DNA of 37,103 nt from an uncultured Desulfobulbaceae bacterium (GTDB taxonomy: Bacteria; Desulfobacterota; Desulfobulbia; Desulfobulbales; CALZHT01), in contig CALZHT010000037.1 in NCBI GenBank assembly GCA_945787445.1, forward strand, positions 1 through 37,103, read 5' to 3'. This document shows positions 14,666 through 37,103 of this stretch, piece by piece (position 1 is the stretch's first letter; every line of letters begins with the position of its first letter). The notes beneath the pieces were generated by a model. The model saw only the letters and a program-made list of their open reading frames with translations, searched no databases and was not told the DNA's origin. The translations under genes and the position numbers were made by a program.

Positions 14666-15688
14666 CTAGGATGCTGCAGAAGTCCTGTTGGGTTCAACTC
14701 TGTTTCTGCCCAATTCTTTGGCCATATAAAGGGCCTTGTCAGCTTCTGCTATAAGGTCTTCGATCAACACATCAGTGCCGGGATGACAACATGTTACCCC
14801 GATGCTTACTGTTACCCGAATTGAGTTTTCTCCTTCCTTATAAATATGGGCTTCTGATAATTTTTTTATCTTTTCAGCAACCTTTACGGCGCCCTTAAGA
14901 TCTGTATTGGATAAAAGAACCTCAAATTCCTCCCCTCCGAAACGAGCCATGATGTCTGACTCTCTGATAACGCTCTGGACGATATTGACAAAGCCTCGCA
15001 GAACAAAATCACCAAAAAGATGCCCAAAGGTGTCATTTACCCTCTTGAAAAAATCGAGGTCCATGAGGAGCAAGCAAAAACTCCTTTTATATCTATGCAT
15101 CATGGTAATTTCACGTTCGAGAATCTCTTTGAAATGTCGATGATTATAGACGCCGGTCAAACCGTCCTTTATGGCAAGCTCGTGAAGGGCCTTGTTCTGG
15201 TCTTCAATGATTTGCTTTGATTTTTCGAGCTCTACGACTGTATCACGCAGGGTCTGGTTCAATTCCTCCAGCTTTTTTCTTTGCATATCAAGTTTAAGAA
15301 ACACCCTGACCTTACTATGCAAAACATGAGGATCCAGAGGCTTGAATAAATAATCAACCGCCCCGATTTGATATCCCTTGAAAATGAATTTCTGTTCCTT
15401 ACTGATTGCTGTGACGAAAATAATCGGCACATCCCGGGAGCGCTCGATACCGCGCATGAGTTCGGCTGTCTCAAAGCCGTCCATATCCGGCATCTGAACG
15501 TCGAGCAGAATGAGGGAAAAATCATGTTCCAGCACCAGGCCCAGAGCCTCATTTCCCGAACTTGCCTCGATAATGTTGATCTGGTCGCTCATTTCATGTT
15601 CTTCCAACAATCCGCGCAACACTACCAAATTGATCGGACGATCATCGACAATCAGGATATTTTGCTTTGGGTTATTTTCTTCAGGCAT
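14666..15688 (-). CDS. REC-GGDEF response regulator, diguanylate cyclase
   Basis: A 340-residue PleD/WspR-like response regulator that would make cyclic di-GMP. The receiver domain (about 9-125) has the phospho-acceptor D63 in LLLDVQMPDMDG and K in FKPLD. A short coiled coil (about 130-172) leads to the GGDEF domain. The active-site loop reads RFGGEEF (GGEEF at 251-255), so catalysis is expected. RESD at 242-245 sits five residues before it, matching the RxxD inhibitory I-site. MDLDFFKRVNDTFGH is the metal- and substrate-binding strand. I prefer the ATG at 15688, which starts just ahead of NILIVDDRP; a TTG at 15763 would add a tail without recognisable features. The stop is 64 bases before the kinase start, so it is probably the first gene of a four-gene operon and a likely partner of that kinase. 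Confidence 0.92.
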   Translation of the reverse strand: MPEENNPKQNILIVDDRPINLVVLRGLLEEHEMSDQINIIEASSGNEALGLVLEHDFSLILLDVQMPDMDGFETAELMRGIERSRDVPIIFVTAISKEQKFIFKGYQIGAVDYLFKPLDPHVLHSKVRVFLKLDMQRKKLEELNQTLRDTVVELEKSKQIIEDQNKALHELAIKDGLTGVYNHRHFKEILEREITMMHRYKRSFCLLLMDLDFFKRVNDTFGHLFGDFVLRGFVNIVQSVIRESDIMARFGGEEFEVLLSNTDLKGAVKVAEKIKKLSEAHIYKEGENSIRVTVSIGVTCCHPGTDVLIEDLIAEADKALYMAKELGRNRVEPNRTSAAS

Positions 15689-16005
15689 AGAGATTTCTAG
15701 TGATGAGGAGGGCAAAAATAATCTAAGAAAATCTTTACGGCGGCTTTGTGAAGATGGGTCCAAGAATTCATTGGTGTACTATGTTTCAGCTCCTGCTAAA
15801 ACGATCCGATGATGCGTTAATCGTTTTCACCCTTTTAAAATCAGGGGAGGCGATGGTTCAGACTAGAATATTGTATTGTTTCATAAAAATATGATATCAC
15901 TACTGATTAAATCATTTTTTTACAGCGAAATCAACAAGACATAAAATTAATGCTTCGTTGCAAAGAGACATGGACAGCACACGAAAGGATTGAACCTGAA
16001 CAGTC
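15689..16005. other. 317-bp gene-free region, likely operon promoter
   Basis: Both flanking genes read leftward, so this region should hold the promoter of the diguanylate cyclase/kinase/CheR/CheB operon. It is AT-rich around 15870-15960, but I see no confident -35/-10 pair, no terminator for the zinc-ribbon gene and no open frame worth calling. Confidence 0.35.
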
Positions 16006-20687: not shown

Positions 20688-23600
20688 ATGCAATCCGCGC
20701 AACCGCTCATGATGAAAAATTCCTTTCATAAAAACTTTACCTTCCCTTCTCAATTTTCCTTCTTTGTTATTTTTTTTATTCTTTTCACTGCCTTCATTTT
20801 TCTCTCCTCACCCCGAAACGCCAATGCGGCATGCTCTTCATACAAAAATCGGGCAGTTGTCAATGAAGCGCACAGGCAAGGCAATACAGAACGTTTCGTT
20901 GAAATAAAACTCCTTGATGCGAGCATCACGAACTCCATTTATGATAATTGGTCCATTACTATATGCAGCGATGCCCGAGGCTGTACAGGAGCAATTTCCG
21001 TTTCGGCAGCCAATGACAGTGGATATCCGCATGTTGTAATTGAAAAACCGCTGATATCCCATCAAAATTATATAGACCTTACCGTGGGCGGCGGCATGGA
21101 TGTGATCCTAAAAGACGGATCCGGCAACACAATCGATTATTTCAGCGTCTCCGGGTACACAAACCAGCAGGATTCCACCTGCACCCCGGCGTATGACTGG
21201 GATTTCCCAGGATCAAACAGCCAGACAGTTCTGCGCTCTCCGGACGGAACAGGTGATTGGGAAATGGCTGGACCAGGCGGCTCTGTTCCTCCCACTGAAT
21301 CGAATCCCAACGACACTCTGCCGGACGGCAGCACCCCGCCGCGACTGAATATTACCAATGAAACAGTAACCAGCGGCAATACGGCTGTCTTCACCCTCAC
21401 CCTATTGGATCCGGTATCAAGTGATCCTGTTGATGATTATACCGTTTCCCTGGACTACCAAACAGTTGATGACACTGCCCAAGCCGGCGTTGATTATGTC
21501 GCAACCAGCGGCACCATCACCTTCCCCGAAGGATCGCCCGCTGGCACTACTGCCACGGTTTCTGTCGATACCACAGCCGGTTGTGCTTCAGGCAGCGACC
21601 TGTATTTCTATCTGTTTCTCAACAACCAGGTCAACGTCACCTTGCTCAACCATTTTGCCATCGGCACCATCCAACTGGCGGGATCGTCCTCCCTGGACCA
21701 TTTTGAGATCCAACATGACGGCGCCGCCCTCACCTGCGAGCCTGAAACCGTGACGGTCAGGGCCTGCCAGACCGCGGATTGTTCAATCCTCTATCCGTGC
21801 AGCACCGATATCACCCTCTCACCCAGCGGCTGGGTTGGAGGCAACGATAAAACCTTCAGCGGCTCTGCCACATTTCAGTTGCGCCACAATACCCTTGCCG
21901 CACCCCCACTTCCTGATATCGTAACACTTGGTATATCTGCCTACACCCCCATACCAAGCAGCGCCACTCCTGTTACTTGTCTCAACACAACCACCAGCGC
22001 CGCAGACTGCAACATTACCTTTTATGAGTCTGGATTTGTCTTTGATATTCCCACCCAGGTAGCCTGCGAAACATCTGCGGCAATAACTATCAGCGCGGTG
22101 AGAAAGGATTTGGAAACCGAACAATGTGTGCCTGCCTTTGACGGCCGCACCGAAACCATCGACTTCCGGGCAACCTATGCCAATCCCGCCACAGGTACCA
22201 ATTCCCTGATTCTGAATACTATTACGCCCCCGAATGTCTACAACCTGACACCGCCGGCTGTCAATCCAATCACTCTTGACTTTGATGCCAACGGAGAATC
22301 TACCATAACGGTAAATTATCCGGATGCCGGCCAATTGCAACTTGACGCCAGTTTTACAGGTTCCGGCAGTGAGGCCGGCTTGGTAATGACCGGCATTGAT
22401 ACGTTTGTGACCCGGCCTTTTGCATTATTTATAACGATACCAGGAAATCCAGGCGCTACTGATGCTTCAGGAGCTTTCTTTACAACGGCCGGAACCGCAT
22501 TCTCAACAGATGTTACAGCCGTTTGCTGGCAAGCGGCAGATGATGCTGACAACAACGGTATCGCAGACGGCCACGATGATACGAACCCAACCAATAACGC
22601 CAACCTGGGCGACAATCCGGCAGTTCCCAATTTCGGGCAGGAAGCAGCAGCTGAATCCGTAGCACTGGCAGGGCTGCTCAATCAGCCTGCTGGAGGAAAT
22701 GATCCCGGGCTTGCAGGCACAACGACCGTTGCATCTTTTACAAACGGCAATGGAAGCACAACAGTCAACTACAGTGAAGTGGGCATTATTGAAATTTCTG
22801 CAGGCATTGGTGATGGGGACTATCTCGGGATCGGACCTGCAGCCACAGCAGACATTGTCGGCAGCTCCGGATATATCGGCCGCTTTATTCCGGATAGATT
22901 CAACGTCACGATAAATCCTACCAAAAACAATTGGCAAGCAAGCACTGCGTATAACCTTGGCGACGAAGTGTTGCCGACATTCCACAACGGTCACCTCTAT
23001 ACAGCGCTGCAAGCCGGCACCTCAGGAGCAACAGAACCAGGTTCCTGGCCGGAGGACGGCACAACAGTCAATGACGGCACAGTAATTTGGATAGATAACC
23101 AGGCATTATTACTCGGTAGTTTCTGTGGTCCGTTTACGTACCTTGATCAACCATTTTCATATATTGGCAATCTTCAGATAACGATTGAAGCGTTAAACAG
23201 TTCCGGTAACCTTACTCAAAACTATGGAGGAGATGGCACTGCCGATGATTTCTGGAAATTATCGGCCCCCGCACTCGATGCAACCTATTATACCGACCAG
23301 GCAGGCATACCAACCTCAGTATTATCTATCAATAATGCAGGTACTGTTGCTGTCAATCAGGCAAACGACTTCGATGGTGACGGCATCCTGGAAATTAGTT
23401 CCGCTTCTTTCAATTATCCTCGTCCCGCTGCGGAAATCTGGCCTTTTAATGCCTTATTCGATTTTGCTCTACCGGATAGCGATTTGACCGACTCGGATGG
23501 TGTCTGCTATGACCCTGACGCAGATGCTACTTGTGATTCCTTTTCCTTAATCAATATAACGGGCACCCAGCTTCGCCACGGCATTGCAACGGCTATGAAT

Positions 23601-23978
23601 GCTTACGGCCCAGAGACTGTTGATGCAGCCAATCCGCTTATCATGAATGTAATGGTTGAATATTACGACAGCACCGATACCTGGCTGACCAACCCTGATG
23701 ATAGTTGTACCACATATGACTATACTATTGCTTCGCAAAACGATATCACTGTAAACCTTCCGGTTGGGCCAACAACAATAACAATGAATGCCGGCCAAGG
23801 TGATCTGACCATGTGGCCGACTGCTGATCCGAACATCTCCCCCAATTACCCGGGTGGTTTTGTTGTATTCAATTTCGACTTTCCAAGCTGGCTTGAGCCG
23901 GACCCCATAGCCGAGGCCTATTTCGGACTCTTCCGGGGCAATGACCGTATCATTAATTGGCAAGAAATCGTGCGGTGA
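20688..23978 (+). CDS. mshQ: MshQ-like giant exported protein (DUF6701-type)
   Basis: A 1096-residue secreted protein heading the pilus locus. A signal peptide ends near NANA/A at about residue 48. Residues about 50-190 resemble a lamin-tail-like beta domain (AVVNEAH, RFVEIKLLD, GSGNTIDYF). About 215-330 resembles a Calx-beta domain (TVDDTAQAGVDYVATSGTITFPEG spread over 265-290). The remainder matches my memory of the MshQ/DUF6701 region of MSHA loci, with many Cys and beta-rich segments. Inserted at about 745-807 is a separate module with W-x-x-x-x-x-Y-x-x-GD-x-V and DGTVIW, like carbohydrate-binding repeats found in phage tails and chitinases. It is likely a pilus-associated adhesin or tip protein; the adhesin role is inference. 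Prepilin genes follow on the same strand. Confidence 0.75.
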   Translation: MQSAQPLMMKNSFHKNFTFPSQFSFFVIFFILFTAFIFLSSPRNANAACSSYKNRAVVNEAHRQGNTERFVEIKLLDASITNSIYDNWSITICSDARGCTGAISVSAANDSGYPHVVIEKPLISHQNYIDLTVGGGMDVILKDGSGNTIDYFSVSGYTNQQDSTCTPAYDWDFPGSNSQTVLRSPDGTGDWEMAGPGGSVPPTESNPNDTLPDGSTPPRLNITNETVTSGNTAVFTLTLLDPVSSDPVDDYTVSLDYQTVDDTAQAGVDYVATSGTITFPEGSPAGTTATVSVDTTAGCASGSDLYFYLFLNNQVNVTLLNHFAIGTIQLAGSSSLDHFEIQHDGAALTCEPETVTVRACQTADCSILYPCSTDITLSPSGWVGGNDKTFSGSATFQLRHNTLAAPPLPDIVTLGISAYTPIPSSATPVTCLNTTTSAADCNITFYESGFVFDIPTQVACETSAAITISAVRKDLETEQCVPAFDGRTETIDFRATYANPATGTNSLILNTITPPNVYNLTPPAVNPITLDFDANGESTITVNYPDAGQLQLDASFTGSGSEAGLVMTGIDTFVTRPFALFITIPGNPGATDASGAFFTTAGTAFSTDVTAVCWQAADDADNNGIADGHDDTNPTNNANLGDNPAVPNFGQEAAAESVALAGLLNQPAGGNDPGLAGTTTVASFTNGNGSTTVNYSEVGIIEISAGIGDGDYLGIGPAATADIVGSSGYIGRFIPDRFNVTINPTKNNWQASTAYNLGDEVLPTFHNGHLYTALQAGTSGATEPGSWPEDGTTVNDGTVIWIDNQALLLGSFCGPFTYLDQPFSYIGNLQITIEALNSSGNLTQNYGGDGTADDFWKLSAPALDATYYTDQAGIPTSVLSINNAGTVAVNQANDFDGDGILEISSASFNYPRPAAEIWPFNALFDFALPDSDLTDSDGVCYDPDADATCDSFSLINITGTQLRHGIATAMNAYGPETVDAANPLIMNVMVEYYDSTDTWLTNPDDSCTTYDYTIASQNDITVNLPVGPTTITMNAGQGDLTMWPTADPNISPNYPGGFVVFNFDFPSWLEPDPIAEAYFGLFRGNDRIINWQEIVR

Positions 23979-24043: not shown

Positions 24044-24550
24044 ATGCGGTTTATAAACATAAATGGAGAAAGCAATCAAGGTTTTACCCTTATGGAAGTG
24101 ATTATTGTAATGCTTCTAATCGGGGTCCTAGCCGTGGCCATATCAAGCAGATGGCCAACAGGTATGGATGATAAGGCCGCAGTTCTTGAATTCAAACGCG
24201 CTGTACGCTATGCCCAGCATAAAGCCATGACCCGCCAATATACCGGTGCAGCAACTGCCTGGAAGATTGGTATTGCTGCAAACCATTACACAATCCAACG
24301 TGAAGGCACGGACTGCTCCACCTGCCCAATTGATCCCGGCTGTGCTGAGCCGGACTACTGTGACCGTGCTCTACTGGATCACGCGGCAATCAGCCTTGTT
24401 GGTCCGACAGTCTGGTTCAACGGGCTCGGTGAACCGACAGACATGGCAGGCAACCCTTTAGCAGCAAGCACTTTCACCATTAGCGGCGGCAACACTGTTA
24501 CCATATGCCCTGAAACCGGTTATGTTCAGGAGGGACCTTCTTGTCCGTAA
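24044..24550 (+). CDS. mshC: Minor prepilin, GspH/MshC-like
   Basis: A 168-residue class III signal (prepilin) protein. A short leader ends in Gly, then GFTLMEVIIVMLLIGVLAVAI with cleavage before Phe and the conserved Glu5. The C-terminal domain has Cys-rich loops (CSTCPIDPGC, EPDYCD) and ends VTICPETGYVQEGPSC, recalling the GspH/FimT fold. It is the first of four minor pilins in H-I-J-K order. Its stop overlaps the next gene by 10 bases. Processing requires a prepilin peptidase not present in this window. Confidence 0.85.
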   Translation: MRFININGESNQGFTLMEVIIVMLLIGVLAVAISSRWPTGMDDKAAVLEFKRAVRYAQHKAMTRQYTGAATAWKIGIAANHYTIQREGTDCSTCPIDPGCAEPDYCDRALLDHAAISLVGPTVWFNGLGEPTDMAGNPLAASTFTISGGNTVTICPETGYVQEGPSCP

Positions 24551-25158
24551 GATTCAATTATAAACAACAGAGAGGTTTCTTTCCCGGTGGTTTCTCTCTG
24601 ATGGAAATTCTGATCACCATAGTGATCCTGGGTTTTCTCTCCCTCATCCTTATTCCTTTTTATACTTCCATCACCCACAGTCCTGATCCTGTTATCCGTG
24701 AAAAAGGTATCGCATTGGGCCAGGCGTTGATGGATGAAATTCTTTCCAAGAAATGGGATGAAAATACGCCCTTTGGCGGTGGCCCTCTGAACACTGATCT
24801 TGAAAGTTCGCGTGGTGTAATTGCCGCAACTCCTATAGCAAGCCTTGGGCTTGATGCAGGAGAACTGATTGGTACTGATAGATCAAATTGGGATGATGTA
24901 GACGATTATAATGGGCTTTTTGAGTCTCCGGGTACTCCTGTCCCCCTTACAGACCAGAGTAATAATCTTATTCCAGTTTCCGGTTATACACGACAAGTCC
25001 AGGCAGGCTACATTTCAAGCACTATAGATCCCATAGATAGAACAACAACTTTTCAAGGACCTGGGCTTAACACTACTGACACAAAATTAATAAAAGTCAC
25101 AATTACTATGCCGAACCAGGAGACTTTCACTTTGGTGGCGGTCTATTGCAATATTTAA
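24541..25158 (+). CDS. mshD: Minor prepilin, GspI/MshD-like, TTG start
   Basis: A 205-residue prepilin with leader MSVRFNYKQQRGFFPGG, then FSLMEILITIVILGFLSLILI containing Glu5. A following segment GIALGQALMDEILSKKWDE is typical of MshD-type proteins. The TTG at 24541 is well supported: AGGAGGG lies 6 bases upstream, inside the end of the preceding gene, and there is no competing ATG at a suitable place. It probably sits in the pseudopilus-like initiation complex. Confidence 0.85.
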   Translation: MSVRFNYKQQRGFFPGGFSLMEILITIVILGFLSLILIPFYTSITHSPDPVIREKGIALGQALMDEILSKKWDENTPFGGGPLNTDLESSRGVIAATPIASLGLDAGELIGTDRSNWDDVDDYNGLFESPGTPVPLTDQSNNLIPVSGYTRQVQAGYISSTIDPIDRTTTFQGPGLNTTDTKLIKVTITMPNQETFTLVAVYCNI

Positions 25159-25169
25159 ATGCCCCGAAA

Positions 25170-25970
25170 ATGAACAACCCAAAACACATATTAAATTTGT
25201 ACCGAAACACCAAGGGCTTCACCCTTATGGAGCTTATCATTGTTATTGTGCTGCTTGGCATCATTGGGCTAATGGGGGCAAATTTCATCAGCACCGCCTT
25301 TAAAGGATTTTCAGACACCGATATCCGCAATGACATCTATGAAGAAGGTAAAACAGTCCTGGTGCGCATGGAAAGAGAGCTGCGCAACGCACTGCCCAAT
25401 GCGGTCAATCTAGCCGGCGCCACGGATCTGCAATTCGGTATAATAGACGAGACAGCCCTGGATTGTTCATCATTGCCCTGCGTCTTCGGCCAGTACCGGG
25501 ACAACAACCCTGTCGGCAGATCGTTTATTCGTGATCAACGTAATAATACAGGCATGAATGGGAGAATCATCTCCATCTATAACAGAAACTGGAGTCCAGA
25601 TTTTTCAGGTCCGGCAGCTAGTCTAAGGCTCTATCAGGTTACAGGCATTGTTGGGTCACGCCGTATGAATTTACATAAAAATATTCTCGCCGCTTCACCT
25701 AATAGACGCTTTTATCCGGTGGCCAGAGCAATCCGATATTATTTGAGCGGCACTACTCTTATCCGGGAACCGGCAGCGGTTAACATTGCAGGGCCAACTC
25801 TCTTCCCGGGGGGAACAATACCGCTGGCAAATAACATCTCGTCTCTTACTTTTAATTATCAGCCAGGCACTCTTGTCCGAAATGCTCTGGTTACGGTGGA
25901 TTTCACCATAAGTCGCAGCGGCATCAATGTTACCTTCCATAAGGAGATTCAGATTCGCAATGTGCCGTAA
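25170..25970 (+). CDS. mshO: Minor prepilin, GspJ/MshO-like
   Basis: A 266-residue prepilin. The leader ends NTKG, then FTLMELIIVIVLLGIIGLMG with Glu5. KTVLVRMERELRNALPNAV at about 60-80 is characteristic of the GspJ/MshO group. The last third is beta-rich. I chose the ATG at 25170; a TTG at 25146, which would overlap the previous stop, is also in frame, and neither has a strong ribosome-binding site. It is third in the minor-pilin series. Confidence 0.83.
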   Translation: MNNPKHILNLYRNTKGFTLMELIIVIVLLGIIGLMGANFISTAFKGFSDTDIRNDIYEEGKTVLVRMERELRNALPNAVNLAGATDLQFGIIDETALDCSSLPCVFGQYRDNNPVGRSFIRDQRNNTGMNGRIISIYNRNWSPDFSGPAASLRLYQVTGIVGSRRMNLHKNILAASPNRRFYPVARAIRYYLSGTTLIREPAAVNIAGPTLFPGGTIPLANNISSLTFNYQPGTLVRNALVTVDFTISRSGINVTFHKEIQIRNVP

Positions 25971-26355
25971 CAATACAATTTATACTATTTTTGCCAACAA
26001 CAAAGGTTTCGGTCTGATCGCTGCCGTATTCGTGGTTGTAATTCTCGCCATGTTTGGCCTGCTCATTGCCCGCTATACCCTGACAAGCTCAACATCGTCA
26101 GGAGAAGATTATGTCTGGTCTCAAGCACTATATTCTGCGGAATCAGTGGCGCAGCTCCGAATACTCTGCTATGACGGAGGGGGCAATTTCCCAGGACCAT
26201 GTAATGGTGTCGGCGGAGTAGAGCCAATTGTTGAGAACTTTGCCGTAACCATTGGAACTGATACCTTTACCGGGCCGAATAGCCCTGATATTCTTCAAGT
26301 CCAGTCCACCAGGGGCAACATCAGCCGACAGATCCAAGTGAAATTCATTCTGTAA
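25960..26355 (+). CDS. mshP: Minor prepilin, GspK/PilX/MshP-like, lacks Glu5
   Basis: A 131-residue protein with a short leader ending NNKG and FGLIAAVFVVVILAMFGLLI. Position 5 of the mature helix is Ala, not Glu, as in GspK-type tip pseudopilins. SSGEDYVWSQALYSAESVAQLRI resembles the family's post-helix region with AxYxAExxAQ. Two Cys (CYDGGG and PCNG) may form a disulfide. The ATG at 25960 overlaps the previous stop by 11 bases. AAGGAGA lies about 13 bases upstream, rather far. The family is known to cap the pilus or pseudopilus tip. Confidence 0.8.
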   Translation: MCRNNTIYTIFANNKGFGLIAAVFVVVILAMFGLLIARYTLTSSTSSGEDYVWSQALYSAESVAQLRILCYDGGGNFPGPCNGVGGVEPIVENFAVTIGTDTFTGPNSPDILQVQSTRGNISRQIQVKFIL

Positions 26356-26388
26356 AAACTCCTATCCCCTTAGTTTCATATTAATTTT

Positions 26389-26417
26389 TTGATTATGGCA
26401 TTTGGATGTGATATAAA
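26389..26417 (+). promoter_or_regulatory. Internal sigma-70-like promoter before the pilin gene
   Basis: TTGATT (26389-26394) and TATAAA (26412-26417) with 17-bp spacing lie in the 127-bp gap upstream of the major-pilin-like gene. Transcription would start near 26424, leaving a leader of about 59 bases. A separate promoter would let the pilin be made in excess over the machinery. Confidence 0.5.
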
Positions 26418-26482
26418 TATAGAGAATACTTATGTTATCTAACATTTTCTTGTTATCTCTATCCATTCCGGAAGGAGGAAAA

Positions 26483-27082
26483 ATGGTGGGCTTGGGTAAC
26501 AATAAAGGCTTTACCTTAATTGAACTCATAATAGTTATTATCATTCTCGGTATTCTCTCATCCGCTGCTTCTCAATATTATCTGAAAATGCAGGAAGAAG
26601 CTAAGATTGCAGCAACCAAAGGCAAACTTGCCGCTATTCGCGGTGGGATTGAACTTGGCCACGCCAAGATCATGGTGTCCGGTGTAAACACTGGTCCGGA
26701 AGGCGATAATCCTGACTGGCCGACCCTTGAAGAAGTGCAATTCAATGAGTTGATGCTTGAGACCCGGCCTGATTCTTTACAACACCTCAAACTGGTACGG
26801 GCTGACCATTTTTCCAATGAACGAAATAAAGCATTGCCTGATTGCAACCTGCCTGACATGACCTCCGGCATGTCCCAAAATCCTTCTGCAGTTGCATCCC
26901 GATCCCTTGCTGATGTAACCACAGGGATACGACGTGCCATTGAATCAACCTGTTGGGCCTATTATCCAGGTAATGAGCGAGATGCCAACGGCCGCGTGGT
27001 TGATGCAATCTTCTACATAAATGACGACCGGCCCAATTCCAGCAATATCGATGCGGCCGATCGTCGACCTTCTCAATGGTAG
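26483..27082 (+). CDS. Type IV prepilin, MshA/MshB-like, probable major pilin
   Basis: A 199-residue prepilin: leader MVGLGNNKG, then FTLIELIIVIIILGILSSAA with Glu5 and a long amphipathic helix (YYLKMQEEAKIAATKGKLAAI). The globular part has exactly two Cys (ALPDCN and ESTCWAY), suggesting the D-region disulfide typical of type IV pilins. The ATG at 26483 has GGAGGA at ideal spacing; the longer in-frame ATG at 26432 would destroy the short leader. A promoter-like element precedes it. The other prepilins in the window look like minor ones, so this is the best major-pilin candidate, though a second pilin could lie elsewhere. Confidence 0.82.
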   Translation: MVGLGNNKGFTLIELIIVIIILGILSSAASQYYLKMQEEAKIAATKGKLAAIRGGIELGHAKIMVSGVNTGPEGDNPDWPTLEEVQFNELMLETRPDSLQHLKLVRADHFSNERNKALPDCNLPDMTSGMSQNPSAVASRSLADVTTGIRRAIESTCWAYYPGNERDANGRVVDAIFYINDDRPNSSNIDAADRRPSQW

Positions 27083-27827: not shown

Positions 27828-28949
27828 ATGAGATTGAAATTACACAAAAAAAATACGTATTCTCTGGCATGCGACCACAACAAAACACTGCTGACAGAAT
27901 CCGTCAAGGCTTCCAGCTCATACGGACTTCGAACCATTGCTAGAACCGATGGTTCACTGAAAGACGAAAAAACTCTCCCGCGCTTACTCTCAACTACCTC
28001 TGCACCCAAAGCTGATGTTTCCGTGGCCTTGCCCTTGAGCTTCTTTGAGGTTGTAAGCCTTCCCTTGCCTGTCATGCCTGATGAGGCTATCAACAGAGCT
28101 CTGCCGTATTATCTTTCCAAGGCCATTGACAAGCCTCTTACAAGCTTCGTTTATGATTGGCAAATCACCCAGCGCCAGAAAAATCAGCTACAGCTAACGG
28201 TTTACCTCTTCCCAGCCTCTACCTTTAGACAATTTGAAGAAGAATTAACGAACAAGCAGCTTGAACTTGCGTATTTTGAGGCGGATATTTTTGCGGCCTA
28301 TGCATATCTTGCCTGCACCAATCAACTGCAAGAAAATGAAACAAGCATATGTGCCATAATCTGGCCCGAGGACATTTCACTTGCAGTTTATGAAAACAAA
28401 ATTCTCACTCTGGTGCGGTCGGTTTCAATTCCTCAACCATTGATCCCATTCAGTCCAACGATTGAGGAACCCATTTCTGGAGAATTACCACATATAGATG
28501 AAGAACAACCTTCCATGGTCAATGAACCGCAAGCTGATGGTCTTATTTTATTTGACGAACCCGGAGACGATTCCATTCTTGCCGAGTTCGACCTATTTTC
28601 CCTCGACAAACCCGCGTTCACAGCAGAAGAGTCTACCGATGTTGAAAATAACGAACCTGAGATTCCTGCTGATGAGCAAACTGTGGCGCTTTCAATACAG
28701 TCCTGGTCCGATTATTTACAGAATATCAATCTGGAAATTATGCGGACAAGGGATTACCACGCCAGCATTATCAAAGGCAACGCTATCAACAAGATTTATA
28801 TCAGCGGTGCAGAGCCTTTCTGGAAAGACCTGGAAGAAATAAGCAAAAGTTCATTGGGGCTTGAAATCCAGGCTCTCGGCAGTGCATCACCAAACGATGA
28901 AATATCGTCAACACTTAATACCATATGTTTGGGCACAGGGATTAGGTGA
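27828..28949 (+). CDS. mshI: PilM/MshI-like actin-fold protein with acidic insert
   Basis: A 373-residue cytoplasmic protein of the PilM/GspL actin-like group. VALPLSFFEVVSLPLPVMPDEAINRALPYYL, spread over about 66-96, is the typical region near the nucleotide fold. AYFEADIFAAYAYLA and the C-terminal INKIYISGAEPFWKDL are further matches. Residues about 203-287 are a low-complexity acidic insert (23 Asp/Glu against one Lys) not expected in the family. PilM normally polymerises under the inner membrane and binds the N-terminus of PilN. Its stop overlaps the start region of the PilN-like gene. The ATG at 27828 has only a weak ribosome-binding site. Confidence 0.75.
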   Translation: MRLKLHKKNTYSLACDHNKTLLTESVKASSSYGLRTIARTDGSLKDEKTLPRLLSTTSAPKADVSVALPLSFFEVVSLPLPVMPDEAINRALPYYLSKAIDKPLTSFVYDWQITQRQKNQLQLTVYLFPASTFRQFEEELTNKQLELAYFEADIFAAYAYLACTNQLQENETSICAIIWPEDISLAVYENKILTLVRSVSIPQPLIPFSPTIEEPISGELPHIDEEQPSMVNEPQADGLILFDEPGDDSILAEFDLFSLDKPAFTAEESTDVENNEPEIPADEQTVALSIQSWSDYLQNINLEIMRTRDYHASIIKGNAINKIYISGAEPFWKDLEEISKSSLGLEIQALGSASPNDEISSTLNTICLGTGIR

Positions 28950-28957
28950 TGATAACA

Positions 28958-29530
28958 ATGCTTGAAAGAATCAACCTTGTTCCGCAAAAGCCTTTTTCTG
29001 AAAAAATAAAAAAGGCCACCCCTTTTGTTCTCTGTATGCTGGTCACCTTTCTCTTTCTGGTTTTTATTTTTCAGAAAACAGCCATTGAGAGACAAATTGT
29101 CGCTATTGACCAGGAAATTAGCAAAGTTTATGAACGCTCACAGATGGCCGATAAGCTTAAGGTGATGGAAGCAAAACTTAGCAATGATGTAACCACGCTG
29201 CAGAAATTGCAGACCGAACTGCAAGTTACGGTTGATTCCATGTCCCCGGCCAAGGACGGCAAATTCTTTTTCTCGCGGGCACTCGCCGGTATAACACAAG
29301 CGCTTCCTGCATCCATCAAATGCAACAAAATATCGTTCCAGGATAATACCGGAAGCATTGAAGGGTCTGCCGTCCGTTACAGGGATCTGCCGAAATTGGT
29401 TGCGATTCTTAGCCAGAATCCGCAATTTACAAAAGTTGTCTTGCAAAATATAGACAAGGATTTGCTCAAGGACGAACCGCAACTCCATAATGATGTTTTT
29501 TCGTTTAGAATTATTTTCGAATTAACGTAA
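28958..29530 (+). CDS. PilN-like alignment protein
   Basis: A 190-residue bitopic protein. The start MLERINLVPQKP is the conserved PilN N-terminal peptide that sits in the PilM groove. A membrane segment spans about residues 24-42, and a coiled coil about 43-90 leads to a ferredoxin-like periplasmic domain (GSIEGSAVRYRDLPKLVAIL). The ATG at 28958 is preceded by AGGTGAT; in-frame GTG and ATG codons at 28946-28951 would only add three or four residues. It belongs with the MshI- and MshJ-like neighbours. Confidence 0.8.
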   Translation: MLERINLVPQKPFSEKIKKATPFVLCMLVTFLFLVFIFQKTAIERQIVAIDQEISKVYERSQMADKLKVMEAKLSNDVTTLQKLQTELQVTVDSMSPAKDGKFFFSRALAGITQALPASIKCNKISFQDNTGSIEGSAVRYRDLPKLVAILSQNPQFTKVVLQNIDKDLLKDEPQLHNDVFSFRIIFELT

Positions 29531-30259: not shown

Positions 30260-30708
30260 AGCACACAACAGAAAAAATTTTTCCGCCATTCTGCGCTCTC
30301 TTTCTGGTGTTTTGTTTTATTGCACCTCCAGCCTTTGCTGCTGAAGAACCATTGGTGCTCATTGTCCGACCTGAAAAATTGCAAAGGACTGGAATGATTC
30401 CAAAGGACCTGATAAAACGCGATCCCTTCAATTGGTCTGCGGAACAACTCAGAAAATTTAGACACCATGAAGAACAACTCCTGGGTAATATTTTCGAAAA
30501 CCTGCATCTAAGCGGCATAATATGGGGCTATGAGCGTCCATTTGCGGTTATCAATGACCATCTCGTAGGTATTGGAGACACGGTTGGCGGCGTGACAGTC
30601 ACCCATATTTCAAAATCAGAAGTAGAGGTTGCCGGTAAGGGCTTGCGAAAAATGATGCGGTTTTCCCCTCAGGTCTCTGGGCTTAATCCTTCCGGGGAGA
30701 AAGATTAA
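30256..30708 (+). CDS. mshK: MshK/PilP-like pilotin-interacting protein
   Basis: A 150-residue exported protein with signal peptide ending PAFA. The C-terminal half has a homology-region-like beta domain (LHLSGIIWGYERPFAVINDHLVGIGDTVGGVTVT), spread over about 85-120, with the recurrent sequence GIGDTVGG as in PilP/GspC proteins. These link the inner-membrane complex to the secretin. It is coupled at both ends, ATGA with MshJ and TAATG with MshL. Confidence 0.75.
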   Translation: MKHTTEKIFPPFCALFLVFCFIAPPAFAAEEPLVLIVRPEKLQRTGMIPKDLIKRDPFNWSAEQLRKFRHHEEQLLGNIFENLHLSGIIWGYERPFAVINDHLVGIGDTVGGVTVTHISKSEVEVAGKGLRKMMRFSPQVSGLNPSGEKD

Positions 30709-32072
30709 TGAAATATTTTGCAGCGATCAGAAGCTATCTGGACAATAGATCCTGCCGTATTGCTGTGTTGCTAGTTTTATTCTTCATCATGCCTATTTGC
30801 CCAGCCTCTGGAGCGGAATCGCCCATGCTCCAACAGTTGAAGCAGCATGAAGCCTCTGTGCGCGGTGAAAATCTGCAAGTGGCAAATATATTGCGAGCCA
30901 TTGCACGCCAGTCTGCAATTAATATTTTTGTTGCAGACAATATCGATTCAAAAATTACCCTTGAGATGGAAAATCTGACCCTTTACGATATCTTTCATGT
31001 GATCATGAACGCCAAACGCCTCCGCTCCTATGAAAAAAACAAAGTCCTCTACGTTGTAAAAGAGTCGGACTTCCAGGAAGAATTGCAAGATGTGAAAACC
31101 GAGACTCTCTGCACCAAGTTTAGTGATGCCGCAGACTATGTCGACCAGATCAAGCCTTTGATGACTTCTAATGGGACCGTCAGTCTCTCAAAAAGAACAA
31201 ACTGCTTTATTGTGCGTGATCGGGAACCTAATATCGCCCGCATAAAACAGGTTATCGAAAAGCTCGACACGCCTATCCCGCAAATTCATATCGAAGCACG
31301 AATTGTCTCGGTCTCTCAGGAAGCCAAAAAAAGGCTGGGGGTCAGGTGGGGATACGATAATTTAAGCAACCGAAATCCTGTCACTGCTGATGTTGATCTG
31401 TCCATAATCGGCTCGACCAATGTTGCTGTGGGCTTTATCCGGGACAATCTTGATCTCTCGGTTGATCTTATGGCCCTACAGGAAGAAAATATGCTCAATA
31501 TACTCTCAGCGCCACGTGTTCTCGTTGTTGATGGGAGAGAGGCCGAAATAAAACAAGGGAAAGAAGTACCTTTTGTCACCCAATCAGGTGACCTGATAAA
31601 CACATCCTTTCGGGAGGCCAATCTCAGCCTGAGAGTAACACCCAAAATCATGCGTGATAAATATATTGTCCTTGATGTAAATGTTACCAATGACAGTGTG
31701 GATCAAACCCTGGTCGGCACCGAGCCCCTCATCAACAAACAGGAGATAAAAACGAATCTTATCCTTGAAGATGGAGTAACCGTGGTCATTGGCGGCATTC
31801 TTCTCCAGACAAAGGATAATCAAAAAGGAAGCGTTCCATGGATCTCCAAAATCCCTCTCCTGGGATATCTGTTTAGAAATTCCCTAAAAAGTAATGAACA
31901 ATCAGAACTCATGGTATTTCTTACCCCAACAATCGTCAATATTGCCCAGATAGCTGTAAATCCCGAAGACCTGGAAGGATCTTCGGATTTCGAGACGCAG
32001 AGCTTCAATCTGAATGCAAATGAATCTGAAGATAATTTGGCAAACCCGGCAACCGCTGCTTTTGCTAATTAG
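30708..32072 (+). CDS. mshL: Outer-membrane secretin MshL
   Basis: A 454-residue secretin. The signal peptide ends SGA/ES (about residue 36). An N-domain of the STN/secretin_N type follows (NILRAIARQSAINIFVADNI; LYDIFHVIM), then a second N-domain (ARIKQVIEKLDTP). The C-terminal gate region has VPFVTQSGD, LRVTPKI and IPLLGYLFRN with LMVFLTPTIV. It would form the channel through which the pilus crosses the outer membrane. It is short for the family (MshL is usually nearer 500-550 residues), which suggests a shortened N-terminal periplasmic part. It starts inside the MshK stop. Confidence 0.92.
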   Translation: MKYFAAIRSYLDNRSCRIAVLLVLFFIMPICPASGAESPMLQQLKQHEASVRGENLQVANILRAIARQSAINIFVADNIDSKITLEMENLTLYDIFHVIMNAKRLRSYEKNKVLYVVKESDFQEELQDVKTETLCTKFSDAADYVDQIKPLMTSNGTVSLSKRTNCFIVRDREPNIARIKQVIEKLDTPIPQIHIEARIVSVSQEAKKRLGVRWGYDNLSNRNPVTADVDLSIIGSTNVAVGFIRDNLDLSVDLMALQEENMLNILSAPRVLVVDGREAEIKQGKEVPFVTQSGDLINTSFREANLSLRVTPKIMRDKYIVLDVNVTNDSVDQTLVGTEPLINKQEIKTNLILEDGVTVVIGGILLQTKDNQKGSVPWISKIPLLGYLFRNSLKSNEQSELMVFLTPTIVNIAQIAVNPEDLEGSSDFETQSFNLNANESEDNLANPATAAFAN

Positions 32073-32324: not shown

Positions 32325-33224
32325 ATGCATCACCTATCCTTTTTCGGATTAACTGAAGATCCATTTAAACTTACGCCGGACCGGGATTTTTATTTCCCTT
32401 CCGCGAGCCACACCGCTGTGAGTGAGGTAGTACGCTTCGGTCTGCAACAGGGAGAGGGTTTCCTTCTCCTTATAGGTGAGGTAGGAACCGGAAAGACCAT
32501 ATTGCTCCGGTACATGATGAACGAAATTCAGCAGCAATTTGAAACCGCCCTGCTCCTTTCTCCTCAACTTACCCCAAGGCAACTCCTGCTGGCCATTCTG
32601 CAGGATGTCGGTCATGAAGAAAAATCCCTCAACCGCTGCAGTTTGGACAAACTGCTCAGAGTTCTTAACGATTACCTTTTTGCACTTTCCACCAAAGGCA
32701 AAAAGCTGGTTATTATTATTGATGAAGCACAGAATCTGCCGGATCAGAGCATTGAACAATTGCGACTGCTTTCCAATTTTGAATCGGACAAACAGAAACG
32801 ATTGCAAATTGTCCTGATAGGTCAACCTGAACTGCAAACAAAAATCGAATCGCCCCAACTCCGCCAACTGTTACAACGGGTAACAATTATGGAAACCTTG
32901 ACTCCCCTTTCAAAAGAGGAAATGGGTCATTATATCCACTTCCGGCTCAGCAAGGCCGGTCGCGGCGACCTGCGGGTAGGACCTGCCGCCCGCAAATTGT
33001 TATGGCGATATACCCATGGGGTGCCGCGTCTAGTCAACAAATTTATGAGCAGATCATTATTGGTAGCATATGCTAATCAGAAACAAATCGTTGATTGCAA
33101 AATCCTTCGTGAAGCAGCTCTTTCCATGCGTTGCAGGAAACCGTTTTTCGGCAAGCTGAGAATGACAACCGCAATTGCAACCAGCGCACTATTTATTTTT
33201 GTTTTTTGGTTTATGCAAATTTAA
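32325..33224 (+). CDS. mshM: ExeA-like AAA ATPase MshM
   Basis: A 299-residue ATPase of the ExeA/MshM group. Start MHHLSFFGLTEDPFKLTPD is the family's typical N-terminus. Walker A is GEVGTGKT at residues 51-58 and Walker B is VIIIDEAQN at about 129-137. QLRLLSNFE, the Arg-rich QLLQRV segment and the lid GVPRLVNKF follow. A C-terminal membrane segment (about 280-297) with a very short tail would anchor it. In V. cholerae MshM is needed for MSHA assembly; ExeA helps secretin insertion. No Shine-Dalgarno site precedes the ATG, perhaps because of the inserted repeat upstream. Confidence 0.88.
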   Translation: MHHLSFFGLTEDPFKLTPDRDFYFPSASHTAVSEVVRFGLQQGEGFLLLIGEVGTGKTILLRYMMNEIQQQFETALLLSPQLTPRQLLLAILQDVGHEEKSLNRCSLDKLLRVLNDYLFALSTKGKKLVIIIDEAQNLPDQSIEQLRLLSNFESDKQKRLQIVLIGQPELQTKIESPQLRQLLQRVTIMETLTPLSKEEMGHYIHFRLSKAGRGDLRVGPAARKLLWRYTHGVPRLVNKFMSRSLLVAYANQKQIVDCKILREAALSMRCRKPFFGKLRMTTAIATSALFIFVFWFMQI

Positions 33225-33508: not shown

Positions 33509-35146
33509 ATGGCAGAACCTGTAAAACGAAAGCGGTTTGGTGACATTCTTGTTGAAGGTGGACTTATTTCCGCAACCCAGCTCGAACAGGCCCTGGCCCA
33601 TGGTAAAGACAAAAATATCAAACTTGGCCAAGCATTACAGGAGCTTGGTTTTGTAAACGATATTGCCGTTGCAAAAACGCTTGCCAAACAGCTTAACATC
33701 CCATTCGTTGACCTGGAAAAAATTGTCATTGATCCGGAAATTGTCAGTTCAATCCCTGAGCTGATCGCCAGAAAACACAAAGTCATAGCGCTCGGTAAAC
33801 GGCCGGGAGAGCTTTTAGTAGCCTTTGCCGATCCCTTAAATATTTTTGCCCTGGATGAAATCACCAAACAGGTTGAAGATAAAGTTGTCAGCAGCGTAGG
33901 TGTTGAATCAAGAATAGCCTCGGCCATAGATCGATATTATACAACAGAAGCCCGACTTCTTGAAAATGAGGCCACAGGTGAAGAATCCGAGGCAGTGACA
34001 GCAGTCAACGAACTGCTCTTGCAGGCTGTCCGTGAAGAAGCGAGCGATATCCACATTGAACCCTCGGAAGATAAAGTACGGGTACGGTTCCGCATAGACG
34101 GAATCCTGCGGCAAACTAAAGAATATTCTTTTTCCATGCACCCCAGTATAATTTCTAGAATAAAAATTCTTTCCCAATTGGATATCGGTGAACGCCGAAA
34201 ACCCCAAGATGGTCGTTTTGAGATGCCAATCTCCGGTCGTCACTTTGACGTGCGTACCTCTACATTACCGCTTAACCCCCTTGAAAAGGTGGTAATGCGT
34301 CTGCTGGACAAATCAAAAATCCGCATCGACATGCAGGACCTTGGTTTTGAGCCGGATCAGAATACCCTTTTTGAAAAACACCTCCACCATCCCCATGAGA
34401 TTATTCTGGTGACCGGTCCCACTGGAAGCGGCAAAACCACGACCCTTTATGCTGCACTCAACTTCATTAATTCCGTTGAAAAAAACATTGTCACAGTAGA
34501 AGACCCGGTTGAATATGAATTGACCGGCGTCAATCAGGTGCAGGTGAATCCCAAGGCCGACCTGACCTTCAACACCTCCCTCCGTTCTATCCTGCGTCAG
34601 GACCCCGATATTGTGATGATCGGGGAAATCAGGGATGTGGAAACCGCCGAAATCGCTATCCAGGCAGCCTTAACCGGACATCTGGTCCTTTCTACTTTAC
34701 ACACAAATGATGCCTGCGGCTCCATAACCCGTTTGGTGGACATGCAAATCCCACCGTTTCTGATTGCCTCTGCTCTAGGACTGGTTCTGGCCCAGCGGTT
34801 GGTGAGGCTCCTCTGCCCAAAATGCAAAGAAGCATTCACTCCACCTGCCAATATTCAGGAAGATCTGGATATAGAGTATGATGAAAACCGTAAATTTTTT
34901 CGTGCCACAGGCTGTGAAAAATGCGACCAGAACGGTTACAAAGGCAGATTGGCCTTATATGAAACGTTACCCATTTCCAAAGAAATTGAAACCCTGATCA
35001 TGGCTAAAGCTTCAAGCCATAACCTTTTCCGGCAAGCTGTCCAGGAAGGACTGGTTTCTCTGCGTCAGGCCGGGATCAATAAAATGCTGGCCGGCACCAC
35101 CTCTTTGGATGAAGTTTTACGCGTAACCTTGGATACCAAGGAGTAG
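33509..35146 (+). CDS. mshE: Pilus assembly ATPase MshE (PilB/GspE family)
   Basis: A 545-residue extension ATPase. The N-terminal MshEN-type region has two 24-residue motifs at residues 9-32 and 38-61 separated by five residues, the layout known to bind cyclic di-GMP in V. cholerae MshE. R9, G11, L14 and G18 are kept, but the first motif ends Gly32 instead of Gln, and the second begins Lys38 instead of Arg. The ATPase core carries GPTGSGKTT (Walker A, about 302-310), an Asp box EDPVEY, GEIRDVETAEIA and LSTLHTND. A C-terminal zinc-type CPKC/CEKC cluster precedes YKGRLALYE. AGGTGT precedes the ATG. It would power pilus polymerisation from the cytoplasmic face. Confidence 0.93.
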   Translation: MAEPVKRKRFGDILVEGGLISATQLEQALAHGKDKNIKLGQALQELGFVNDIAVAKTLAKQLNIPFVDLEKIVIDPEIVSSIPELIARKHKVIALGKRPGELLVAFADPLNIFALDEITKQVEDKVVSSVGVESRIASAIDRYYTTEARLLENEATGEESEAVTAVNELLLQAVREEASDIHIEPSEDKVRVRFRIDGILRQTKEYSFSMHPSIISRIKILSQLDIGERRKPQDGRFEMPISGRHFDVRTSTLPLNPLEKVVMRLLDKSKIRIDMQDLGFEPDQNTLFEKHLHHPHEIILVTGPTGSGKTTTLYAALNFINSVEKNIVTVEDPVEYELTGVNQVQVNPKADLTFNTSLRSILRQDPDIVMIGEIRDVETAEIAIQAALTGHLVLSTLHTNDACGSITRLVDMQIPPFLIASALGLVLAQRLVRLLCPKCKEAFTPPANIQEDLDIEYDENRKFFRATGCEKCDQNGYKGRLALYETLPISKEIETLIMAKASSHNLFRQAVQEGLVSLRQAGINKMLAGTTSLDEVLRVTLDTKE

Positions 35147-35153
35147 ATAAAGC

Positions 35154-36392
35154 ATGGCGCTCTTCAGTTATGAAGCCATAAATGCGACAGGAAAAACCCA
35201 GACCGGTACATTTACAGCTGAACTTTCCCAAGAAGTCGAACGATGGCTCCTGGAAAAAGGCTTGAGTCCGATCAGTATCCGGATGGTTGCGGAAAAAATC
35301 GGACCAGACTACGAACAGCATGAAACAAAAATATCACTTTTAGATAAAATCTCCGGCGTAAAAATTGAAGACCGCATCCTATTCTGCAGACAGATCGCCA
35401 CCATGCTGGACGCCGGTGTACCTGTGCTGCAATCCTTAAAAATATTGCGACAGCAAGTTACCAATCCAATTCTCAAACAGATAATCGCAGACATAGCCAC
35501 TAATGTTGAACAGGGGGCCAGCTTAAGCGATTCCTTTGCCCAATTCCCCAAAATATTCGGGCAATTGTTTCAGAATGTCATCAAAATTGGTGAAGAATCA
35601 GGAAATTTGGACAACTCCTTCAGCTACCTTGCACTGCTCTACGAAAATGAAAAAGATGTTAAAGAACGGATCAAATCTGCCACCAGATATCCGAAAATCG
35701 TAATATCAGCCTTATTCGTTGCGGTCTTTTTCCTTATGTCTTTTGTGGTCCCTAAATTTATCAGCCTGTTTGAAAAGGGTAAAGTTGAACTTCCTTTAGC
35801 TACAAAAATTCTCATTCTGATAAGCAATTTCTTTTCACACCACTACCTGGCAATTTTCATCGGAATAGTTGTCTTAATCATAAGCTACCATGTTGCCATA
35901 CGCTATGAGGAGGTCATTCTTTTTCGGGACAGGATGCTCCTCAGAACACCGATCTTCAGCGACCTCTACACAAAGATTTACATGTCCCGTTTCTGCCGAG
36001 TTTTTGCAGTATTAACCAAAAGCGGCATTGATATAATCAAAACCCTGAGGCTTTCCGCATCAGCCCTCGATAATCTCATCCTCTTCCGAATGATTGAGCA
36101 GGTGACTGGAGAAGTGGAGGAAGGTGCTAATCTGCATAGCTCCATGGACAAACATCCACAGCTTCCTGCCATGGTTGTCCAAATGGTTGCCGTGGGCGAG
36201 GAATCAGGGCAACTTGACACCATGATGGATAAAGTAGCCGACTATTATGAAGTAGAAACAGATTATACTATTAAAAACCTGTCAACGCTGATCGAACCCA
36301 TACTACTGCTGTTCATGGGGATCATGGTCTGCTTTATCGCCCTTGCCATCTTCCTGCCCATGTGGAATATGATGAGTGTCATGCGTGGCTGA
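35154..36392 (+). CDS. mshG: Inner-membrane platform protein MshG (PilC/GspF)
   Basis: A 412-residue polytopic protein with two T2SF domains. Domain 1 (about 70-195) contains LFCRQIATMLDAGVPVLQSL and KIGEESGNLD. Domain 2 (about 275-400) contains RFCRVFAVLTKSGIDIIKTL and VAVGEESGQLDTMM. Three membrane segments lie at about 175-205, 220-245 and 375-400. The duplicated motif and length fit PilC/GspF platform proteins, which couple the ATPase to pilin insertion. GGAG at about 35139 serves the ATG eight codons after the mshE stop region. Its stop overlaps the next reading frame by 8 bases. Confidence 0.93.
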   Translation: MALFSYEAINATGKTQTGTFTAELSQEVERWLLEKGLSPISIRMVAEKIGPDYEQHETKISLLDKISGVKIEDRILFCRQIATMLDAGVPVLQSLKILRQQVTNPILKQIIADIATNVEQGASLSDSFAQFPKIFGQLFQNVIKIGEESGNLDNSFSYLALLYENEKDVKERIKSATRYPKIVISALFVAVFFLMSFVVPKFISLFEKGKVELPLATKILILISNFFSHHYLAIFIGIVVLIISYHVAIRYEEVILFRDRMLLRTPIFSDLYTKIYMSRFCRVFAVLTKSGIDIIKTLRLSASALDNLILFRMIEQVTGEVEEGANLHSSMDKHPQLPAMVVQMVAVGEESGQLDTMMDKVADYYEVETDYTIKNLSTLIEPILLLFMGIMVCFIALAIFLPMWNMMSVMRG

Positions 36393-37103
36393 AAGTTCCA
36401 AGGCCAATAATCAAACCAGCTCAAACCACATGCTGAAACACGTATCGTCATCTTTCCCACAGCAATTCATCCACATTGCTCTGCTTACACTTTTTATTTC
36501 TATTGCTTATTTCCCATCCCTTGATGTGCCATTCATATTTGACGACCAGCCCAACATTGTTCTGAATCCCTCTGTGCACCCGGAAAAATTTTCCGAAATA
36601 TGGGAGGCTACAAAATCCCCTTACTCCTCTTCCCGTCCCTTGGCCATGATGTCCTTTGCCTTCAATTATTGGCTGCATGGTCTTGATTACTTTGGCTATC
36701 ATATCGTCAATATCCTCATCCATATATTGAATGCCTTTTTGTTATATAAAATAATTAGTGCATTTCCCTTAAAAGCAACGCAGAAAACTTCCAAACACTC
36801 TTTCACGTATAACACCCAAAATCTTGCCTTTTGGAGCGCGGCTCTCTGGGCTATGAATCCAATCCAAACCCAAGCGGTCACCTATATTGTGCAGCGCATG
36901 ACCTCAATGGCGACCTTTTTCTACTTCAGCGCCATCCTTACTTTTCTGCTCTGGCGGAACAAAAAACTTTCAACCATCACAGCTTTTTCGATAATTATTG
37001 CCAGTTTCATTTTGGGTATGGCGTGCAAAGAAATTGTTATCACCCTGCCCTTTGCTCTCCTGCTTCTGGATTGGCTCTTGTATTCAAAAACCACGACAAA
37101 GAG
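36385..37103 (+). CDS. TMTC-like membrane glycosyltransferase, partial (3' end missing)
   Basis: A partial frame running off the window, at least 239 residues. A GTG at 36385 overlaps the mshG stop by 8 bases; an ATG at 36430 is an alternative, and neither has a strong ribosome-binding site. The sequence has an early membrane segment, then FDDQPNIVLNPSV, SSRPLAMMSFAFNYWLHG, NPIQTQAVTYIVQRMTSMA and GMACKEIVITLPFALLLLDW. These blocks are typical of multi-spanning proteins annotated as TMTC/O-mannosyltransferase-like with TPR tails. In this position it might modify pilin, but that is only inference. Confidence 0.75.
   Translation, partial: MAESSKANNQTSSNHMLKHVSSSFPQQFIHIALLTLFISIAYFPSLDVPFIFDDQPNIVLNPSVHPEKFSEIWEATKSPYSSSRPLAMMSFAFNYWLHGLDYFGYHIVNILIHILNAFLLYKIISAFPLKATQKTSKHSFTYNTQNLAFWSAALWAMNPIQTQAVTYIVQRMTSMATFFYFSAILTFLLWRNKKLSTITAFSIIIASFILGMACKEIVITLPFALLLLDWLLYSKTTTK

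Follow-up and report, generated by a model that had tools for sequence, protein, structure and literature searches.

Does the N-terminal domain of a pilus motor still bind c-di-GMP when one of its two motif-final glutamines has been replaced? This question is raised by mshE, a gene in a 37,103-nucleotide stretch of DNA from an uncultured Desulfobulbaceae bacterium (contig CALZHT010000037.1; hereafter the window). The MshEN domain of its product carries Gly at position 32 and Lys at position 38 where Gln and Arg are expected, and a preliminary description of this DNA, made from the sequence alone, treated both as key substitutions by which binding could be weakened, lost or altered in nucleotide preference.

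The mshE gene and its pilus locus

The mshE product (Table 1) belongs to the Pfam family MshEN (PF05157; 64.3 bits against a cut-off of 23.1, residues 62-148) and also exceeds the Pfam cut-off for T2SSE, with 471.1 bits. In this pilus locus the T2SSE ATPase has genes for a secretin, an AAA ATPase and a platform protein as neighbors, the setting of an MSHA-type extension ATPase. The protein scores below the equivalog cut-offs of both PilB (TIGR02538, 601.0 versus 675.65) and GspE (TIGR02533, 562.7 versus 630.25), and the neighboring secretin, which passes the PilQ model (TIGR02515, 291.3 versus 284.35), stays below that of MshL (TIGR02519, 92.1 versus 250.2). The name MshE is therefore given by locus type and not by a curated equivalog. 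Among 31 named related loci, several of them on contigs that end early, a secretin lies near the ATPase in 28, an AAA ATPase in 26 and a platform protein in 28; the closest come from uncultured Desulfobulbaceae or Desulfobulbales, as well as from Deltaproteobacteria.

Table 1. Features of the window discussed in the text; positions count from its first nucleotide.
Feature	Position	Strand	Remarks
REC-GGDEF diguanylate cyclase	14666..15763	-	RESD (RxxD I-site), five residues, then GGEEF
DUF6701 protein, presumably MshQ-like	20688..23978	+	CBM5/12 insert
Pilin-like genes	24044..27082	+	three N_methyl proteins, at 24044, 25146 and 26432
PilN-like component	28946..29530	+	
Secretin, MshL position	30708..32072	+	Secretin profile over cut-off
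MshM-like AAA ATPase	32325..33224	+	name from locus order
mshE, MSHA-type pilus extension ATPase, 545 aa	33509..35146	+	ORF; MshEN domain and T2SSE ATPase
Motif I, residues 9-32	33533..33604	+	R9 and L25/L29 kept; F10 and G32 off consensus
Phe10 codon	33536..33538	+	Leu in consensus
His31-Gly32 codons	33599..33604	+	
Five-residue spacer, residues 33-37	33605..33619	+	KDKNI
Motif II, residues 38-61	33620..33691	+	K38, L39, G40, V54, L58, Q61
MshEN_C subdomain	33692..33952	+	includes Asp108 (33830-33832)
MshG-like inner-membrane platform protein	35154..36392	+	T2SSF

Two further observations concern the flanks of this locus. The CBM5/12 module of the DUF6701 protein (about 22929-23048) interrupts the match to the DUF6701 profile between its positions 295 and 297; the stretch of some 67 residues is absent from six relatives that have an ORF spanning the site (L098, L099, L104, L117, L119 and L122), and no such module turned up among 1,072 ORFs of the 31 related loci. 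Downstream of mshG, an ORF on the plus strand (36376-37101) runs off the window after at least 242 codons, and by eye its product resembles a membrane protein.

Register and composition of the c-di-GMP motif

The 53-residue motif occupies residues 9-61 of the translation with the 24-5-24 spacing intact and Arg9 in place, as the preliminary description had stated. A phmmer alignment to MshE of Vibrio cholerae (5htl) contains no gap within these residues and sets Gly32 on Gln32 and Lys38 on Arg38, and thus confirms the register from which the two substitutions had been read. The NCBIfam model of the c-di-GMP motif (NF053729) aligns over its full length, with residues 9-61 on model positions 1-53 of 53, at 52.7-56.7 bits against a cut-off of 38; this is the third-ranking of eight matches in the genome, five of which exceed the cut-off. 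All 24 relatives tested match the model at E <= 7e-10, the E-value standing in here for the 38-bit cut-off, and residues 9-61 are free of gaps and insertions in each of the 39 orthologs described below. A wrong register is rejected on these three grounds: the gap-free alignment to 5htl, the full-length model match and the gap-free orthologs.

Measured against the strict consensus (Wang 2016), Gly at motif position 3 is present in both motifs (Gly11 and Gly40). Motif I departs at position 2, where Phe10 replaces Leu (Leu39 of motif II fits), and at position 24, where Gly32 replaces Gln (Gln61 fits); motif II departs from the LxxxL that precedes the final Gln, with Val54/Leu58 in place of a pair to which Leu25/Leu29 of motif I conform. 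The extended consensus, which admits Arg, Lys or Leu at position 1 of both motifs (Neissner 2024; PMC11731258), accommodates Arg9 and Lys38. Compared with V. cholerae MshE, with which it has 36% identity over 138 aligned residues, the protein shares the fold, the 24-5-24 spacing, Arg9, Gly11, Leu25, Leu29, Leu39, Gly40, Leu58, Gln61, Asp108 and an MSHA-type locus with secretin, AAA ATPase and platform neighbors, whereas it differs by L10F, A31H, Q32G, R38K and L54V. All of these except the change at position 31 fall on ligand-contacting side chains (L10F, Q32G, R38K and L54V). Three changes, Phe10, Gly32 and Val54, come together in the pocket, which counts against retained binding. The earlier list of departures was correct for Gly32 and Lys38 but passed over Phe10, Val54 (both Leu in V. 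cholerae MshE) and the aromatic residue at position 31. What the domain keeps comprises Gly11 and Gly40, which make backbone contacts, Leu25/Leu29/Leu39, Gln61, Asp108 and a basic stretch at residues 6-9.

An AF2 model (mean pLDDT 87.7) has helix 1 beginning at residue 10, in agreement with bound V. cholerae MshE, in which this helix is broken (PMC5013675). The best structural match of the model is c-di-GMP-bound 5htl (Z 18.2, rmsd 2.2, 138 residues), followed by XpsE (2d28, Z 16.4). Because XpsE is called a non-binder (PMC5013675), the fold alone proves nothing.

Inheritance of the substituted residues

Of 257 genomes of the order, which we take to be Desulfobulbales, 40 contained a match to MshE at E <= 1e-25. 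One of them (G154; 40% identity, Gln32) falls away from MshE in the tree and was left out as a paralog, leaving 39 orthologs, including the window protein, from 21 genera and 11 families as counted by taxonomic code. Position 32 is a small residue in all of them (35 Gly, 3 Ala, 1 Ser) and position 38 is invariably Lys, counts that reflect shared ancestry and are not 39 independent events. Chance, or a sequencing-level artifact, in this one gene is virtually out of the question as the source of Gly32 and Lys38, since the same letters occur in 39 orthologs from independent genomes; decay of the window gene alone is rejected for the same reason, and Gly32 in particular is not such decay because a small residue is fixed at this position across the group. 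Further departures are widespread as well: position 10 is Phe in 37 orthologs and Leu in 2, position 31 is aromatic in 39/39 (26 Tyr, 9 Phe and 4 His, the last including the window protein) and position 54 is Val in 30 and Ile in 9. Position 58 (21 Leu, 16 Ile, 2 Val) and position 9 (23 Arg, 15 Lys, 1 Met) vary more, and Gly11, Leu25, Leu29, Gly40, Gln61, Arg88 and Asp108 are invariant. A fixed charged residue at position 33 in replacement of Gln32 found no support, as this position is Arg in 16, Lys in 10, Ala in 4, Thr in 3, Asn and Glu in 2 each, and His and Gly in 1 each.

Two broader samples place these residues in context. Among 89 other MshEN proteins with Gly11 and Gly40, which were chosen by similarity to the window protein and are not a fair sample, 72 have Gln32 and 14 a small residue at this position, all 14 with Gln61 kept; Lys38 occurs in 37 and Phe10 in one. 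A phylum sample of 90 motifs, composed of the 30 best-scoring loci and 60 chosen by hand among the matches listed, contains Gln32 in 81 cases and a small residue at 32 in five, high scorers favoring Gln32. Within these 90 motifs among the matches listed, Lys38 is found in 26, Phe10 in none and Ile or Val at position 54 in 38; nine lack Gln32, nine lack Gln61 and none lacks both. The latter nine, again among the matches listed, form a mirror case, with Gln32 kept and Gln61 replaced by His, Asp, Asn or Glu (L237, L240, L242, L245, L247, L253, L254, L258 and L264). Judged from the counts in the orthologs and these two samples, Lys38 is frequent and Gly32 a minority form, and the real signature of the group is Phe10 together with the aromatic residue at 31.

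The small residue at position 32 is not confined to the order. A tree was computed from the part of the alignment that follows the motif (residues 62-545) by a quick method with no bootstraps, using 82 rows that remained of 84 chosen by hand once two short ones had been dropped (L002 and L165, the latter with Ser32). In it, the 24 MshE rows are set apart from all others by one branch (support 99), and a single fork (support 85) holds 34 of the 36 small-32 rows plus one long row with Gln32 (L021); the fewest changes at position 32 on this tree number two. The distribution of the small-32 trait matches an ATPase clade wider than the order, and given this grouping it is an inherited trait of that clade and not the product of repeated recent damage. 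The Desulfobulbales MSHA motors appear to be one branch of it. It is conceivable, if doubtful, that this large clade maintains a second standing form of MshEN with a one-Gln pocket, to which the MSHA branch would have added Phe10 and the aromatic residue at 31, resulting in a retuned c-di-GMP threshold or a different grip on the ligand.

Probable ligand binding by a pocket with one glutamine

Published mutants bear directly on the individual substitutions. In V. cholerae MshE, Gln32 and Gln61 each hold ribose and phosphate through two hydrogen bonds, Asp108 contacts guanine 2, and changes at Arg9, Asp12 and Gln32 are reported to have an effect of about fivefold at most, while L10A alone raises the KD 36-fold (PMC5013675). 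The triple change L10A/L54A/L58A abolishes binding and leaves the ATPase constitutively active (PMC5013675, PMC7096442), and elsewhere a binding loss of 61% is given for Q32A and of 83% for R9A (PMC4624772). For the GSPII-B domain of Thermus thermophilus PilF (8pdk), single changes of either Gln leave measurable binding (KD 950 nM for Q190E and 460 nM for Q218E) and the double change abolishes it (PMC11731258); a bound structure of PilF Q190E is on record by its title (9gl5). The same domain, with a KD of 6 nM, has Lys at the start of motif I and Leu at that of motif II, residues that confer higher affinity than Arg, and restoring Arg weakens binding (PMC11731258). GSPII-B thus binds with no Arg at either motif start, so Lys38 need not be harmful; it does, however, keep both Gln (Q190 and Q218), whereas the window domain has only that of motif II. 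Taken together, these mutants lead us to predict that a pocket with a single Gln binds more weakly yet still binds, and that Lys38 is neutral. Of the two substitutions first singled out, Gly32 holds up as a true departure from the consensus; the idea that Lys38 is a key loss is contradicted by its presence in every ortholog, by its frequency in both wider samples and by the Leu in motif II of a tight binder.

We found no proven c-di-GMP binder with Gly32, and PMC12943098 yielded nothing further on Gln32. The non-binding domains PilF GSPII-A and Xanthomonas XpsE likewise combine the MshEN fold with motif departures, but they also lack the motif-II Gln (R62 in GSPII-A; Q61V in XpsE) and the Gly of the second motif (A41; G40L), both of which the window domain retains. 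That Thermus GSPII-A, which besides other changes has neither Gln, shows no binding (PMC12002112) counts against retained binding, since the motif-I Gln is missing from the window domain too. The capping pattern by which helix 1 is locked and binding prevented in GSPII-A occurs in none of the 39 orthologs.

The conservation of the site speaks to the main rival reading, which we consider unlikely: that c-di-GMP binding has been lost, leaving a constitutively active ATPase whose MshEN domain now has a structural or docking role. The 11 columns that Wang et al. list as side-chain contacts show stronger conservation across the 39 orthologs than the remaining domain does (entropy 0.40 versus 1.14, permutation p = 0.002), also when the comparison is restricted to residues 9-61 (p = 0.023). 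Ten fold-supporting motif positions that make no ligand contact are just as conserved (entropy 0.31), so the conservation is partly structural, as a loss of binding would allow. Such a loss is also consistent with the existence of a natural non-binding relative, Thermus GSPII-A, and with Phe10 and Val54, which occupy two of the three positions (10, 54 and 58) changed in the non-binding, active triple mutant. However, Phe and Val leave the pocket hydrophobic, which Ala does not, and Ile or Val at position 54 is common, being present in 39/39 orthologs and in the 38 of 90 phylum motifs noted above among the matches listed. The strongest single argument for a kept site comes from Gln61 and Asp108: both are known for contacting the ligand, and neither varies among the 39 orthologs.

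The same order also contains a second family of MshEN-bearing ATPases of about 780 residues (L197-L226) that has lost binding residues: Gly40 is replaced by Asp or Glu in 28 of 30 rows, Gln61 by Tyr, Phe or His in all 30 and Leu29 by Arg or Lys in 26, with Gly11 retained and Ala or Ser at position 32 in 30/30. Its contact columns show no significant excess of conservation (p = 0.08). That this paralog lost Gly40, Gln61 and Leu29 in the same genomes in which MshE kept them argues against a loss of binding in MshE.

The reading we favor is that this MshE is probably an ordinary MSHA extension ATPase which, judging by its sequence, would still bind c-di-GMP, in an asymmetric pocket with one Gln. 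Since its relatives share the odd residues and the rest of the site is kept, the most likely description is that of a known sensor in an inherited variant form, not of a broken one. Binding would follow the manner of V. cholerae MshE, with Arg9 and Leu25/Leu29/Leu39 stacking on guanine 1, Phe10, Val54 and Leu58 stacking on guanine 2 and Lys38 on the opposite face; the ribose-phosphate clamp would be reduced to its Gln61 half, and binding would switch the ATPase toward pilus extension, as in V. cholerae. Because the pocket is asymmetric, its affinity is probably unlike that of the two-Gln form. A receptor prediction that insists on Gln at the end of each motif would class the whole group as non-binding. 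Should the one-Gln form bind, the published consensus would be too strict, and pili under c-di-GMP control would extend further into the sulfur-cycling Desulfobacterota; should it not, the group would be a clean natural example of a sensor domain preserved intact although its signal is gone.

The supply of ligand in the genome was considered as well. In the open-licence papers searched, we found none on MshE or MSHA of Desulfobulb- lineages or on Hypr GGDEF/cGAMP in Desulfo- lineages, and for Gly/Gln substitution in MshEN only one, on EAL enzymes. With 17 GGDEF, 2 EAL and 19 PilZ matches in the genome, c-di-GMP signaling is very likely present. The preliminary description had pointed to a diguanylate cyclase with intact GGEEF and I-site some 18 kb upstream, and this gene is indeed there, starting about 17.7 kb from mshE on the opposite strand; no link between it and MshE was found in our analysis. 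A Ser in place of the GHxxGD Asp marks cGAMP synthases. The window cyclase carries the base-specifying Asp, as do all 15 readable GGDEF domains of the genome (2 of the 17 are not readable). These domains speak against a switch of ligand, in which the small residue at 32, Phe10 and the aromatic residue at 31 would favor another cyclic dinucleotide, such as 3',3'-cGAMP. We regard such a switch as very improbable, even though Phe10 (37/39) and the aromatic residue at 31 (39/39) are specific to the clade and V. cholerae MshEN binds cGAMP weakly, with a KD of 330 uM (PMC5013675): base choice is set by the backbone NH groups that follow Gly11 and Gly40 (PMC5013675), and both glycines are unchanged. 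Of the outcomes first proposed, we therefore judge lost binding and an altered nucleotide preference to be less likely than a weakened or retuned binding of c-di-GMP.
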